Of a DNA stretch of 64,000 nt, positions 2,654 to 49,129 are shown in pieces (positions within the stretch are counted from its first letter, which is position 1; every line of letters starts with the position of its first letter). A program made the translations under genes and the position numbers. Origin of the DNA: Verrucomicrobiaceae bacterium E54 (GTDB lineage Bacteria > Verrucomicrobiota > Verrucomicrobiia > Verrucomicrobiales > Akkermansiaceae). The stretch covers positions 1 to 64,000 of the forward strand of contig JAKZES010000011.1 in NCBI GenBank assembly GCA_022548915.1, in the 5' to 3' direction. Under the pieces are notes generated by a model. It ran no database searches. It was not told the origin of the DNA and saw only the letters and a program-made list of their open reading frames with translations.

Positions 2654-5600
2654 ATGCACTTTGTGAATCCAAAAGCTGCGGTGCGGCAGCCGGGTTTGTT
2701 CGCGGCATCCGGTCGAGTTCGCAAAAGCGGCTTCGCCCTGGTGGTCACCATCAGCCTGATGGTCCTGCTGGCGCTGCTTGCCGTCGGCCTGCTGTCGCTG
2801 TCCTCGATCAGCCTGCGGAACTCCGCCAATGCCGTGGCGATGTCCGAGGCCCGGGCCAACGCCAGGCTGGCCCTGGTGATCGCCATCGCGGAACTGCAGC
2901 GCCACACGGGGGCCGACACCCGGGTGACCGCCTCGGCGCAACTATTGGACGAAGAAAACCCGCCGGTTCTCGGGGTCTGGAGGAGTTGGGAAGGCACGGA
3001 TCACGAGGACAACGGGCGCCCGATTCCTCCCGACTACGGGGCAAAGAACCAACCGGAGTCGAGCGGAGGTCGCTTCCTCAGCTGGCTGGTCTCGAGTGTC
3101 GACAGCGAAGGCAATCCTTCGATCAGCGACGCCCCCGGACTCGTCGAGGCAGCTGCGGGTGCGAAGACCGTTCCGCTTCTCGCGGACGGATCGTTGATGC
3201 CGGGTGATTCGCGTCAGGTTCATGTGCTTCCAACGGGGATTGTGGACGGTGGCAGCATCGCGTGGTGGATTTCGGGCGAGAACCAGAAGGCCCGGCTGGG
3301 GCAGCCCTATGAGCCGCGGGCCAATGGCGCTGCCGGCTTGGCAGAAAGGGCGCAATCGCACACGGTGGCAGACCCCGCGGTTTTCGGATTGGTGACGCTG
3401 GTCAATGACCCGGAGCCCCACGATCCGGGCGGGGCGGCGGCCAAACCGGCCCGCAAGGCCGTCACTCGTCAGTCCATGGCGTTGATCGAGGACGACAACC
3501 CGGTCGAGCCGGATCGCAGGTTTCATGACTTTTCGACCAACGCGGTCGGACTTCTGACCAACACGGCGACGGGCGGCTGGCGCAAGGACCTGTCGATCCT
3601 CAGCGAGCGCTGGGATGACATCAATGCCCGGTATCCGGGGAGACGTCTCCCGCTGTTCCGCTTCAGTCCGGAGGATGGCGACACTTCTTCCGTCCAGAAG
3701 CCCACCGTGTCGAATCACACACCCGCCCAGTCCCTGTTCTATCCATGGAGCAGCTACTCGCTCACCAGCCCCCAGAAGTGGCCCAACACGTGGCATGCCG
3801 CCTCCTCGTCATGGCAGTCCCTGGTGAATTTCGCGACCCTGTACAGGGACTTCACCTACAGCAACGGCGCGGTCGAGAGCCCCTTCATCTGGGCCCCCGT
3901 GATGAAATGGAGATGGAGGGGGAGTGAGAAGGATGCGACGGACCAGGAGTTCTACGATTACAACCACACACCCAGGATTCATCCCATCCTCGCCCGATTC
4001 CAATTCATCGTCTACGTGCGGGCCACCAATGATCCAAATCGGCCGGGGAGGTACAGGACCGACCTGATCTACTCGCCGGTGGTGACGCTTTGGAATCCCT
4101 ACAACGTGCGCCTTACGATCGATAATCCGGGAGCCCCCTCCTCGGGAGTGGTCATCGGTGGCAAGCGCTCCTTCCCGGCGGCTTTCACGGCCCAGCCCCT
4201 CAACCGTTACAGCAATCCGTTCAACATCCCGCTGAGGGAATACCGCATGCTCAGCAACGGGAACTTCCAGTACATGGACACCAACGGGAACTTCGGCGGG
4301 GAGTATGACAACCACCTGCCGGAAAACCGCGACCTCTACAACCCAGATGGAAGTCGGGCCAACACGCTGGTGGATCTGCGAACGTGGGGCATCAACCTCC
4401 CGAACGGAGAACTGACCTTCGAGCCCGGGGAAGTGCGGATGTTCACCCCGGATGGCGATGCTGAAAGGCGGTTCGGAGGAACGGCGATAGGCACGAAGGA
4501 TGGCTACCAGCCTGCCGCCCCGTCAGGTCTTCCGGTCACGATCCGCAACGGGAACCTGGGACCGAACGACTTCTTCTGGTATGTCCTGAAGAACGAGGTC
4601 TACACCCAGCCCTTCCGGTTCCGGAGTCCGGGGAGGGGGTTCAATGTCTCGTTCGGCATGAGCACCGGAAATTCCTACACGCAGGGCACCCTCTACAGCG
4701 GGGTGTCGGAGGAGATGATGAGCATGACCGCTCTGACCAATGCAAAACGGGCCAAGGTCTACTGGCCCGACCAAGACTTCGAGCCCCACGGGTACACCGT
4801 TGCGGAAATCGCGTCGGTTCCGGCAATGCCGCTCTATTCGATCACCATCGGACCGCGTTTCACGATCGGCACGGGGACAGGAACCCCGCAGAGCCGGCCG
4901 ACCAAGGGTTTTGTCCAGAGCGACCCGCTCGCCGGCATGTCGTTGGTCGATCCCGGGGCCGACAGCCCGAACAGCCACCCGGCGAATGGCAACTTTGAAA
5001 TCAGTTACGACACGCTGGCGTTTGGTTCCACGCTCACGCCCAACCTCAGCGACCGGGAAGGGTTCATTGTGACCGGCTACCAGAGCGGGGACGGTCTCTC
5101 GAGGATCATCACCCACGAACTGCCACTGCGTCCGATCGCCTCGCTCGTGGAGCTTCAGGCCTGGAACCCCAGGGGAAAGAATCCGATGCCTCCCTACCAG
5201 ACGCATCTCATCGGCAACAGCGATGCCACCCCCATGATCCCCGGCGACGCCATCGTGCCGCCGGTCATGACACCGGACAATCCCGCCGAGAACCTGCAGC
5301 ATGACGATGCCTACTGCGCGAATCACCTGCTGTTCGATGATTTCTTCTTTTCCTCCATCGCCCCCCGGCCTGTCGACTTCGGCAACAACATCGCCAGGGA
5401 CATCGAGACGGTCTACAGGGATTTCCTCAACGGCGAGCAGCCTCTCACCAACCGGGCCTACAAGCCGATCAGCATCGATACGAACCTGTCGGATGGAGAT
5501 GTCACCAGGCTCGTGGGTGACATTGTGAACAGTCCGCGGGGTGACGGCTGGATGAAGGTGGCGTCAAGGCTCGAGGTGGACGGCATGTTCAACGTGAACT

Positions 5601-45978: not shown

Positions 45979-46608
45979 TCACTGTCCGCCCACCAGCCCC
46001 GGCGGTGTCCCGTAGCCGACGAAGCGCGCCTTCGACCCCTTCCGCGGCAACCTGAAGTCGAACACGCCGAAACCACAACGGGCCTGACCCCGATAGCTGC
46101 GGCCATCGCTGGAGCCGACCATCACCGGGCCGCTGTTCTTTTCGCGACCGAGATACATCTGCACGTGGGTGATCTTGTTTTTCCTGCCATCCTTCGCCTG
46201 GTAGGTCCCGGCCCAGAACAGCAGGTCGCCCGGCTTCAGTTCCGCGAAGGCGTCATCGTCCAGCGAAGCAGTGCCTTGCGGCACTTCATGCATCTCTCCC
46301 TTCTTCTTGATCCATTCGTACTGCGCGGCCGAACTCCGGGCCGGCTCCAGCCCGATCTTCTTCAGGAGATAGAACATCGACCCCGAACAATCGAATCCAC
46401 CCTCCCCGGGATCCGCACTGCGGGCGACATACTTCGACAACTTCAGGCGCTCGGTCTCCTCCAGGGCCACAAGCACCAGTCGCTGGCGCGCCGGATCCAG
46501 ATCCCCAAACCCTTCGAGATCCGACGGCCCGATCACGCCCGGAGCCGGTCGCTCCTTCGCGAGGCAGGTGCTTCCAAGAATGGTGAGAACGGCAAGGAGG
46601 CGAATCAT
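45979..46608 (-). CDS. Secreted NlpC/P60-family peptidase
   Basis: 209-aa exported cysteine peptidase, likely cutting peptidoglycan stems. Signal peptide MIRLLAVLTILGSTCLA sets the start at 46608. The catalytic Cys lies in GGFDCSGSMFYLLKKIG, the His in KITHVQMYLGRE, and LKPGDLLFWAG precedes it as in other NlpC/P60 domains; MVGSSDGRSYRGQ contains the probable third polar residue region. A helical segment (residues about 30-75) links signal and domain. Convergent with the helicase. Confidence 0.87.
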   Translation of the reverse strand: MIRLLAVLTILGSTCLAKERPAPGVIGPSDLEGFGDLDPARQRLVLVALEETERLKLSKYVARSADPGEGGFDCSGSMFYLLKKIGLEPARSSAAQYEWIKKKGEMHEVPQGTASLDDDAFAELKPGDLLFWAGTYQAKDGRKNKITHVQMYLGREKNSGPVMVGSSDGRSYRGQARCGFGVFDFRLPRKGSKARFVGYGTPPGLVGGQ

Positions 46609-46638: not shown

Positions 46639-46772
46639 GCGCGACGCCGTCGCGCAGCGTTTCACCACCGAACCACTCCAACCCCATACCCAAAGCCACA
46701 TCATCAACTCTGCATCCATCTCCTCAGCCCATTCATCCCGGGCGGACACACCGGTGCGCGACAGCGTCGCGC
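46639..46772. repeat. REP/BIME-like unit 1 (two palindromes, 100-nt spacer)
   Basis: Palindrome GCGCGACGCCGTCGCGC at 46639-46655 and palindrome GCGCGACAGCGTCGCGC at 46756-46772; the flanks show they are in opposite orientation. Stem arms are GCGCGAC/GTCGCGC with 3-nt loops. The 100-nt spacer is related to that of the unit at 47413-47546 (shared CATCCATC, ATTCA, CCG in register). It lies between the NlpC/P60 start and the RAYT stop. Confidence 0.8.
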
Positions 46773-46786
46773 GGTCCTTTCCTCCC

Positions 46787-47362
46787 TCACCCACCAAACG
46801 CACTTCCAAACCGCCAATCCTCCGGCCTCTTGCAGAGCCCGGCCCTGACGGGGTTCATCCGGATGTAGCGTCGGGCACGGAGCAGATGATCTTCATCACG
46901 GATCAGGCGGTCGTGGTAATCATGATTCCACAATCGACCCTCTCGCCCAACTCGACGATTGATCAGGCGAGCCGTGTAGTTCTTCCATGACCGCACGATC
47001 TGATCCAGTCGTTCGGCTTCGTGGCAGAAAATCAGAACGTGCACGTGATTGGGCATCACACACCATGCATCGAGACGGTAGCGCTCTCCATCGAAGTGCT
47101 TCAGGTTCTCCTCCACGATCGCTGCATTCTCCGGATCCCTGAGCCAACAATCCCCATGCCCTCGATCCTCATACTCGGCGATCAGGCGATGCAATTGCTC
47201 CTGCCGGTCGGATTCCGTGACGGTGCCCAATTCTCCCAGCCATCGCTCGATGACCTTCTTTGGCACGGAATCGGCAAGCCGATAGGTAATCGCCTGAAGG
47301 CGATGGGTTGCATCGATGTGCGGCAGATATCCCCGCCTGCGCCAACCATCGGCGTTCTGCAT
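46787..47362 (-). CDS. REP-associated tyrosine transposase (RAYT), IS200-like
   Basis: 191-aa HUH single-strand nuclease of the Y1 transposase family. HUH motif is CVMPNHVHVLIF (His106, His108); catalytic Tyr is probably Tyr166 in ARRYIRMNPVRAGL, the diagnostic RAYT ending; RSWKNYTARLINRRVG and LWNHDYHDRLIRDEDHLLRA are also typical. The start at 47362 was chosen because the longer frame begins inside a REP palindrome. RAYTs bind and cut REP hairpins; four such palindromes flank this gene. Full length with all key residues, so probably active or recently active. Confidence 0.9.
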   Translation of the reverse strand: MQNADGWRRRGYLPHIDATHRLQAITYRLADSVPKKVIERWLGELGTVTESDRQEQLHRLIAEYEDRGHGDCWLRDPENAAIVEENLKHFDGERYRLDAWCVMPNHVHVLIFCHEAERLDQIVRSWKNYTARLINRRVGREGRLWNHDYHDRLIRDEDHLLRARRYIRMNPVRAGLCKRPEDWRFGSAFGG

Positions 47363-47412
47363 GGCGAGAGAGTCTGATGCAGCCAGGTGCCGGATCCAAC
47401 GCCGAAAGGAAC

Positions 47413-47546
47413 GCGCGACGCTGTCGCGCATCGCAGCACCATCGAGGCCCGGAGATCGATGGCGGCATGGTGCATCACCCCCATGGCATCCATCCGCCGG
47501 AGCAATTCACACCGAACAGGCGTATCGATGCGCGACAGCGTCGCGC
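47413..47546. repeat. REP/BIME-like unit 2 (two palindromes, 100-nt spacer)
   Basis: Palindrome GCGCGACGCTGTCGCGC at 47413-47429 and GCGCGACAGCGTCGCGC at 47530-47546, again in opposite orientation and with an exactly 100-nt spacer. Unit 2 is a direct-repeat paralogue of the unit at 46639-46772, located upstream of the RAYT and 6 nt past the rmuC stop. Confidence 0.8.
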
Positions 47547-47552
47547 GGTCCT

Positions 47553-49019
47553 CTACCCCTCCAGCGCCGATCTCAGGTCATCCGCCGCCGAGCTGGCCTT
47601 TTCCTTGGCGGGGTCGGGGCTCTCTTCCTCCGCCACCATCGGCAACCGGGCCGCCTTTTCGATCCGTGGAGGGGTTTCCAGCGTCTGGCCCTCCGGCGCC
47701 GCCTGCAGTTCCTCGAACTTGCGCGCCGTGGTGAGCACCCGCGTCTCGTACGATCCGACCGCCGAGTTGAAATGCCCGACCGCCGAGTCGAGGGACTTGC
47801 CGAGCTTGGCAAAGTGACCGGCGAGGACGGCAAGGCGCTCGTGCAGCGTCCTTCCCAGCACCGAAATCTCGCGCGCGTTCTCGGCCAGTGCCTCCTGACG
47901 CCAGCCGTAGGCGACCGCCCGCAGCAGCGCGATCAGGGTGGTGGGCGTGGCCAGGATCACGCCGTGATCCACGCCGCGCTCGATCAGCCCGGGGTCGCTC
48001 TGCAGGGCCGCCGAGAAGAACGACTCGCTCGGCAGGAACAGCACCGTGAACTCCGGCGCGTGCTCGAACTGAGAGGTGTAGTTCTTCGAGGACAACTGCG
48101 TGATGTGCGTGCGCACCTGCCGCGCATGGCGATTGAGGGCCTCGTCGCGCGCCGCATCGTCGGGCGCCTCGACCGCATCGAGGTAGGCATCCATCGGCGT
48201 CTTCGAGTCGACCACGATCGTCTTGCCGCCGGGCAGGCGCACGATCAGGTCGGGACGCAGGCGCCTGCCCTCGTCGTCGGTGGTGCTCGTCTGGGTCTGG
48301 AAATCGCAGTGCTCCTGCATGCCGGCCATCTCGACCACACGGCGGAGCTGGATCTCGCCCCACTGGCCGCGGCCCGTCGGCTGGCGCAGTGCCTTGACCA
48401 GTTGCGCCGTCTCACGCTGCAGGCCGAGCTGGCTTTCGGCCATGGCCTTCACCTGCTCCTTCAGCTCGCCGTAGGCACCCACCCGGGCCTTCTCGATCTC
48501 ACCGATCCGTCCCTCGAATTTCCCGAGCGTCTCGCTCACCGGCTTGACCAGTTGCTCGATGGCCACACGGCGCTTCTCCAGCTCGCCCTTGGCCTCGTCC
48601 TGCTGCGCCTGGAGCGACTGCCTCGCCATCTTGTAGAACTGGTCGGTCGAGGCCTTGAGCGCATCGGCCGACAGCGCCTTGAAGGTGTTGGAAAGGCGTT
48701 CCTCCGCCCGGTCGAGCAGGGCCTGCTTTTCCTTCGCCGCCTTGGCTTCCTCTTCGAGCCGGGTTTTGAGCTCGGTGACCTGGGTGCGGAAGGTCTCGAC
48801 CTGCCGCTCCTCGTCGTCCACCGCGGCCTGCGTCTGGGCCAGCCGCGCCTCGAGGTCCGTCGTCCGCCGTTCGCTTGCGCCGAGTCGCTCCTCCAGCCGG
48901 CCGCGGCGGGCCGAGCCGACGAGGTAGGTGATCAGCCAGCCGAGGAAAAGACCGGCCAGCGCTCCGAGAACCCAGGGCCAGGGGCCTGCGGTGAAATCAG
49001 TGGTGGTGAGAAAGGCCAT
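47553..49019 (-). CDS. rmuC: DNA recombination protein RmuC
   Basis: 488-aa membrane-anchored protein. One N-terminal helix ([20 protein letters not shown]), a long coiled coil (about 35-200, [20 protein letters not shown] and similar), then the nuclease-like RmuC core: [78 protein letters not shown] and [20 protein letters not shown]. RmuC limits DNA inversions at short inverted repeats in E. coli, which is a notable neighbour for the RAYT/REP unit. The tail of about 50 residues is acidic. Confidence 0.93.
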
Positions 49020-49129
49020 GTGGGGATTGTTTCTTGCAGTGCGGCGGACTCGCGCCATCGTCGGGACGAAGGCCGCCTAGCGGGACTACCCGCGTGGCCC
49101 CCCGAACGCAAACCAAACCAACCCCAACC

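Follow-up and report, generated by a model that had tools for sequence, protein, structure and literature searches.

What is the mobile unit at a locus where two paired palindromic units of the same build flank a transposase gene: the single palindrome, the pair with its spacer, or the whole block with the gene inside? We addressed this in a window of 64,000 nucleotides (the whole stretch of DNA analysed) from Verrucomicrobiaceae bacterium E54, whose genome of 5.9 Mb is designated G000, by comparison with its congeners and with related transposase loci. Inverted REP doublets acting as replicative units are known as REPINs (PMC3116915), and the two 134-bp units of the window are, in our reading, very probably REPINs, i.e., two inverted REPs plus a spacer, which belong to a GGANC-tagged set and would be spread as one piece by the resident RAYT (REP-associated HUH/Y1 transposase) that they flank. 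The REPIN is an already known kind of unit, and what looks new, judging from the sequences compared, is GGANC as the tag apparently used by a clade of RAYTs.

Results

Anatomy of the two units

The four palindromes described in the original prediction were all located, and both units consist of an inverted palindrome, a 100-nt spacer, and a forward palindrome at an offset of 117 nt, 134 bp each. The palindrome pattern has 8 strand matches in the window against 0.7 expected from shuffles. The features of the locus are given below, the two units being numbered as putative REPINs.

45979..46608, minus strand: NlpC/P60 gene (Pfam NLPC_P60), right anchor of the conserved locus
46639..46655, minus strand: REP palindrome, left arm of REPIN 1; outer foot GGAACC (plus strand), a degenerate tag
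46656..46755, no strand: spacer of REPIN 1, 100 nt, member of a three-copy spacer family
46756..46777, plus strand: REP palindrome (46756-46772), right arm of REPIN 1, and outer tag GGTCC (46773-46777), which is GGACC on the other strand
46787..47431, minus strand: RAYT ORF, 214 aa (NCBIfam NF047646 REP_Tyr_transpos, 101 bits against a cut-off of 80)
47408..47429, minus strand: outer tag GGAAC (47408-47412) and REP palindrome (47413-47429), left arm of REPIN 2
47430..47529, no strand: spacer of REPIN 2, 100 nt
47530..47551, plus strand: REP palindrome (47530-47546), right arm of REPIN 2, and outer tag GGTCC (47547-47551)
47553..49058, minus strand: rmuC (Pfam RmuC, 355 bits), left anchor of the conserved locus

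The window REP has a perfect 7-bp stem with the loop GCT on the tagged strand, and the outer foot is degenerate at one of the four feet. Folding of single-stranded DNA predicts that each unit forms one long hairpin (z -4.7 to -7.4), and an Rfam search of the window gave no match. The stop codon of rmuC lies one base from REPIN 2.

The RAYT and its locus

The window RAYT also matches Pfam Y1_Tnp as well as PDB 4er8, the solved E. coli TnpArep, and possesses NHVH as its HUH motif and YIRMNP in the region of the catalytic Tyr. The first ATG of the ORF falls within a REP, and Met24 (about 47362) appears to be the likelier start because the alignments of most relatives begin only at residue 17-30.

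In the original prediction, the RAYT sat between two copies as in a composite element. A composite transposon, in which the RAYT and the REPINs on either side of it travel as a single element, would agree with the direct copies of the unit that flank the gene and with the REP pairs often found on both sides of related RAYTs, but the congener G014 carries a RAYT 71 % identical to that of the window at the same rmuC-nlpC junction, again with REPINs on both sides. Moreover, the gene has no second close copy in G000, where the next-best RAYT is 59 % identical and accompanied by different REPs; no RAYT plus REPIN block was found at a second site, and no match puts a RAYT of the window family elsewhere. 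Such a composite is therefore highly improbable, and the shared junction together with the distance to the nearest other RAYT of the genome points to the window RAYT being a resident gene that is not part of a moving composite.

At the corresponding rmuC-nlpC junction of G002 there is no RAYT; its reading as an empty site was rejected, since a different GGACC-tagged palindrome pair sits there. At the RAYT locus of G014 (L162 on contig C51, about 2236-2633 and 3301-3416), three tandem REPINs lie upstream of the RAYT and one downstream; the downstream REPIN and the second of the upstream ones have spacers that are 90 % identical, which suggests local duplication or conversion.

Inverted pairs across the genome

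Exact copies of the window REP number about 45 in G000, and a reversed-pattern control gave 0. Among 20 neighbouring REP pairs, 19 share one inverted orientation (p 5.5e-11 against an expectation of 1/4), with offsets of 75, 103, 108, 109, 113, 114 (three times), 117 (four times), 118, 126, 128 (twice), 143, 172, and 275 nt. Pair spacing is neither random nor fixed at 117 nt. Thus, a fixed size of 134 bp is not supported, the offset of 117 nt occurring in 4 of 19 pairs, whereas palindromes at random spacing, named as the contrary outcome, were not observed either: spacing is non-random, though variable. The congener G014 has a similar REP set with 23 inverted pairs; the exact window REP is found once in G001 and in none of the remaining 15 congeners searched.

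Other arrangements were seen as well. On contig C65 of G014 (L095, 981-1231), a 78-bp unit is repeated in tandem, every copy containing a single REP, a clustering unlike that of inverted doublets. Sister REPIN families with the same tag in G006, G008, and G011 have spacers of ~15-45 nt, compared with ~100 nt in the window family. On contig C76 of G014 (L100, near 1043-1500), two REPINs of different stem families stand side by side; the tags of both are of the GG type, and the two REPINs correspond to different RAYTs of G014. Furthermore, eight contig ends of G000 (L332-L339; also L071 and L074) bear a repeated element beginning GTGCGCGTGCAC, which sits a few bases after a palindromic hairpin in 8 of 8 copies, in two of them after the window REP. 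It may be where a group II intron with REP-like hairpins as its target has its 5' end; an Rfam search of short pieces of the element in L071 and L074 gave no match.

Spacer families and their decay

When aligned without gaps, the two window spacers agree at 51 of 100 positions, compared with 29.2±4.4 in dinucleotide shuffles, of which 0 of 2000 reach 51; the inner 76 nt have 37 agreeing positions (22.6±3.9 in shuffles). The signal is best described as diffuse and in register, because gapped local alignment is not significant (p 0.18). Hence, of the identical 100-nt spacers claimed at the outset, the length is identical and the in-register matches are real, but the sequences are only about half identical. 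A third 100-nt spacer of this family lies on contig C189 (L061), unlinked and reversed, and agrees with the window copies at 52 and 53 of 100 positions with no indels; unrelated pairs score 21-36 %. Profiles made from any two spacers of the family rank the third as top further match (E 4e-4, 9e-4, and 0.02).

Comparable relations exist beyond this family. For instance, a second pair of 100-nt spacers spans the two genomes (L055 in G000 and L082 in G014, 49 %), and two 97-nt spacers (L052 and L068) agree at 52 %. The 30 nt inside each REP display a weak, yet significant, orientation-consistent conservation beyond composition (leave-one-out score 84.7 vs a null of -16.9±7.9), which persists in G000 and G014 separately and without the window family. 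The search for spacer conservation among genome copies thus returned a third member of the 100-nt family and a weak genome-wide conservation of spacer ends. A single genome-wide consensus spacer was not found, most spacer pairs being unrelated by global alignment, and several spacer subfamilies appear to coexist. The identical positions follow no clear three-base pattern, i.e., no coding signal was detected in the spacers. Because of the spacer families, their freedom from indels, and the genome-wide end signal, we infer that a spacer is passed on together with its REPs and diverges chiefly through substitutions, so that copies of equal length still match in register.

These data also bear on the idea that the palindromes are transcription terminators or mRNA-end hairpins of independent origin, in which case pairing and spacers would be meaningless. 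The units do often directly follow stop codons (at 47553 in the window, at L061, and between the presumptive tsaE and argB). Nevertheless, one 17-nt sequence occurring about 45 times in a single genome, the common orientation of 19 of 20 neighbouring pairs, and a constant GGANC foot on one side only argue against it, and as a full explanation it is refuted by homologous spacers shared between unlinked sites. We give it almost no weight, less than any other alternative considered here; a secondary role of the units at gene ends is possible.

Presence and absence of units at orthologous sites

The genes at the compared sites, named from sequence and not from tool matches, are presumably trxB, tsaE, and argB. 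The unit beside trxB is present in G000 but absent in G014, G002, and G015, where the flanks lie 5-19 nt apart, and a unit on contig C191 is common to G000 and G014 but absent in G001. Between tsaE and argB, G014 lacks the unit seen in G000 and retains a REP-like remnant, which may indicate loss rather than an empty site. Movement itself was not observed, and neither a clean target-site duplication nor another target-site signature was found at the compared sites. The comparison of orthologous loci revealed whole units present or absent between congeners, which supports REPINs as units that come and go; together with pair orientation and spacer conservation, it leads us to take the pair with its spacer as the inherited unit.

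Alternatively, the single REP might be the mobile unit, with pairs arising when two REPs land close to each other and the spacer likeness arising from gene conversion between the window copies. Single REPs do occur (L051, L053, L054, L057, and L067) and pair offsets vary, as this would require; however, pair orientation is near-exclusive, one member of the spacer family resides on another contig outside the locus, and it is whole units that are present or missing at individual sites. We consider this alternative very unlikely. The initial suggestion that the mobile unit is a composite and not a single palindrome is supported for the pair with its spacer as a heritable unit, by orientation, the third spacer copy, and presence/absence, and is not supported for a fixed size of 134 bp.

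A constant tag on variable stems

Beside the RAYTs of the clade to which the window RAYT belongs (in the genus and the order), REPs differ in their stems, whereas the 5' foot is constant. At 50 clade loci with repeated flanking palindromes, 164 of 206 such palindromes have GGANC immediately at the stem foot, always at one end and not at the other. The count omits L035, L036, and L199, three rows that were ill-placed. On the same 206 palindromes, shifted positions gave 2-16 as a control, and beside other RAYTs the motif was found at 12 of 96 palindromes. Among the tagged palindromes there are 67 distinct strings, although some of these differ from one another just in how far the stem extends. 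Of 71 distinct cases, 67 have a stem that starts with GC; the loops of the tagged strand are mostly pyrimidines. In a quick RAYT tree built without the tag, the clade, mainly Verrucomicrobiales, has moderate support (SH-aLRT 86), and under the looser pattern GG[AG]NC, 45 of its 52 scorable members are tagged, compared with 4 of 22 RAYTs outside it; some occurrences of the tag thus fall beyond the clade.

Within the window family, the same stem carries GGANC in G000 and GGG[AG]C in G014, a switch of the whole family from GGACC to GGGAC between species whose orthologous RAYTs are 71 % identical. The foot in this family is GGANC or GGGRC; over 119 REPs, GTRG lies within 9 nt of the foot once and CGTC is never at the foot. 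At position 101 (E. coli TnpAREP numbering), His is found in 6 of 8 GTRG RAYTs and in 0 of 49 GGANC/GGGNC RAYTs. Residue 101 was nonetheless rejected as the single tag reader, since its distribution follows the tree and R101 is also found with GTAG elsewhere (PMC6006769); it is kept as a lead. Orphan REPs of the form GGAGC-GCGGACTTCAGTCCGC occupy six places in G000 (e.g., C88:94569), a genome in which none of the RAYTs seen has REPs of this kind beside it; the same REP flanks a RAYT in the congener G003.

Discussion

Our data are consistent with the following model. One strand of the unit would fold such that its two REP arms pair into a long hairpin, at whose outer feet the 5' tag would lie. 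If it behaves like the TnpAREP proteins characterised so far, the RAYT would then bind the tagged strand of the REP hairpin in single-stranded DNA and cut near the foot, the tag guiding the choice of the cut site, and would finally move or copy the REPIN doublet to new sites. A tag adjoining the stem has been regarded as a candidate cleavage guide (PMC8266576). We hypothesize, with about equal weight for and against, that this RAYT clade, mainly from Verrucomicrobiota, operates on an additional class of tagged REPs, in which 5'-GGANC precedes a GC-starting stem with a pyrimidine-rich loop, stems vary freely while the tag stays (except for the switch from GGACC to GGGAC), and the tag acts as a new guide selecting a cleavage dinucleotide other than CT. 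A published report of the GGANC tag was not found in searchable papers (subscription papers, preprints, and supplements being outside this scope), and its novelty is provisional.

REPINs represent long-lived mobile DNA, and what is known of how they are recognised comes from a small number of GTAG systems. The present clade has a different constant tag, dozens of natural stem variants, and one pair of orthologs in which the stem is the same and the tag has switched; it offers a natural test of tag reading by RAYTs, including whether the tag sets the cut site. Furthermore, shared 100-nt spacers at unlinked sites give added support, outside Pseudomonas, for the doublet plus spacer as an inherited unit.

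Two classes of REP tags, GTAG and CGTC, have been described (Di Nocera 2013, PMC3733652), where O. terrae, a member of the Verrucomicrobia, is already on the GTAG list and spacers in REP dimers are either conserved or variable. The present family resembles both superfamilies in its short palindrome with an unpaired tag at one end, its mainly inverted dimers, and a tag that stays constant while stems vary. It departs from the GTAG superfamily, which has GT[AG]G at the 5' foot (GTRG at 1 of 119 feet here), and likewise from the CGTC superfamily, whose 8-9 bp stem and lack of a linked transposase stand against a 7-bp stem, a linked RAYT, and CGTC at 0 of 119 feet.

In P. fluorescens SBW25, Bertels and Rainey (2011, PMC3116915) described REPINs in which 93 % of 430 doublets share one orientation and the doublet spacings centre near 71 and 110 bp. 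The window units are reminiscent of these in their inverted doublets with a spacer, one main orientation, doublet spacing, a predicted long hairpin, and the linkage to a RAYT; in contrast to the GTRG foot and hundreds of copies in SBW25, they bear GGANC, exist in tens of copies, have a less fixed spacer length, and belong to a different phylum.

A RAYT with its flanking REPs has been termed a REPtron, which apparently does not move as a unit, and RAYT groups with atypical feet exist, such as class 3 with CnGA (Quentin 2018, PMC6006769). Like the REPtrons of TnpAREP class 3 and subclass 2.6 (PMC6006769), the window locus has RAYT-flanking hairpins without GT[AG]G, but the structures of those REPtrons are weaker, and they differ in Y motif and host. 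The stems described here are perfect, with YIxxNP as the predominant Y motif and GGANC as the tag. REPtron Sm of Stenotrophomonas maltophilia (group 3, PMC8266576) shares with our family a perfect short palindrome, a 3-nt GCT loop, and a tag placed directly at the stem; this tag, however, is GTAG there and GGANC here, and the RAYT group appears to differ, judging by motifs alone.
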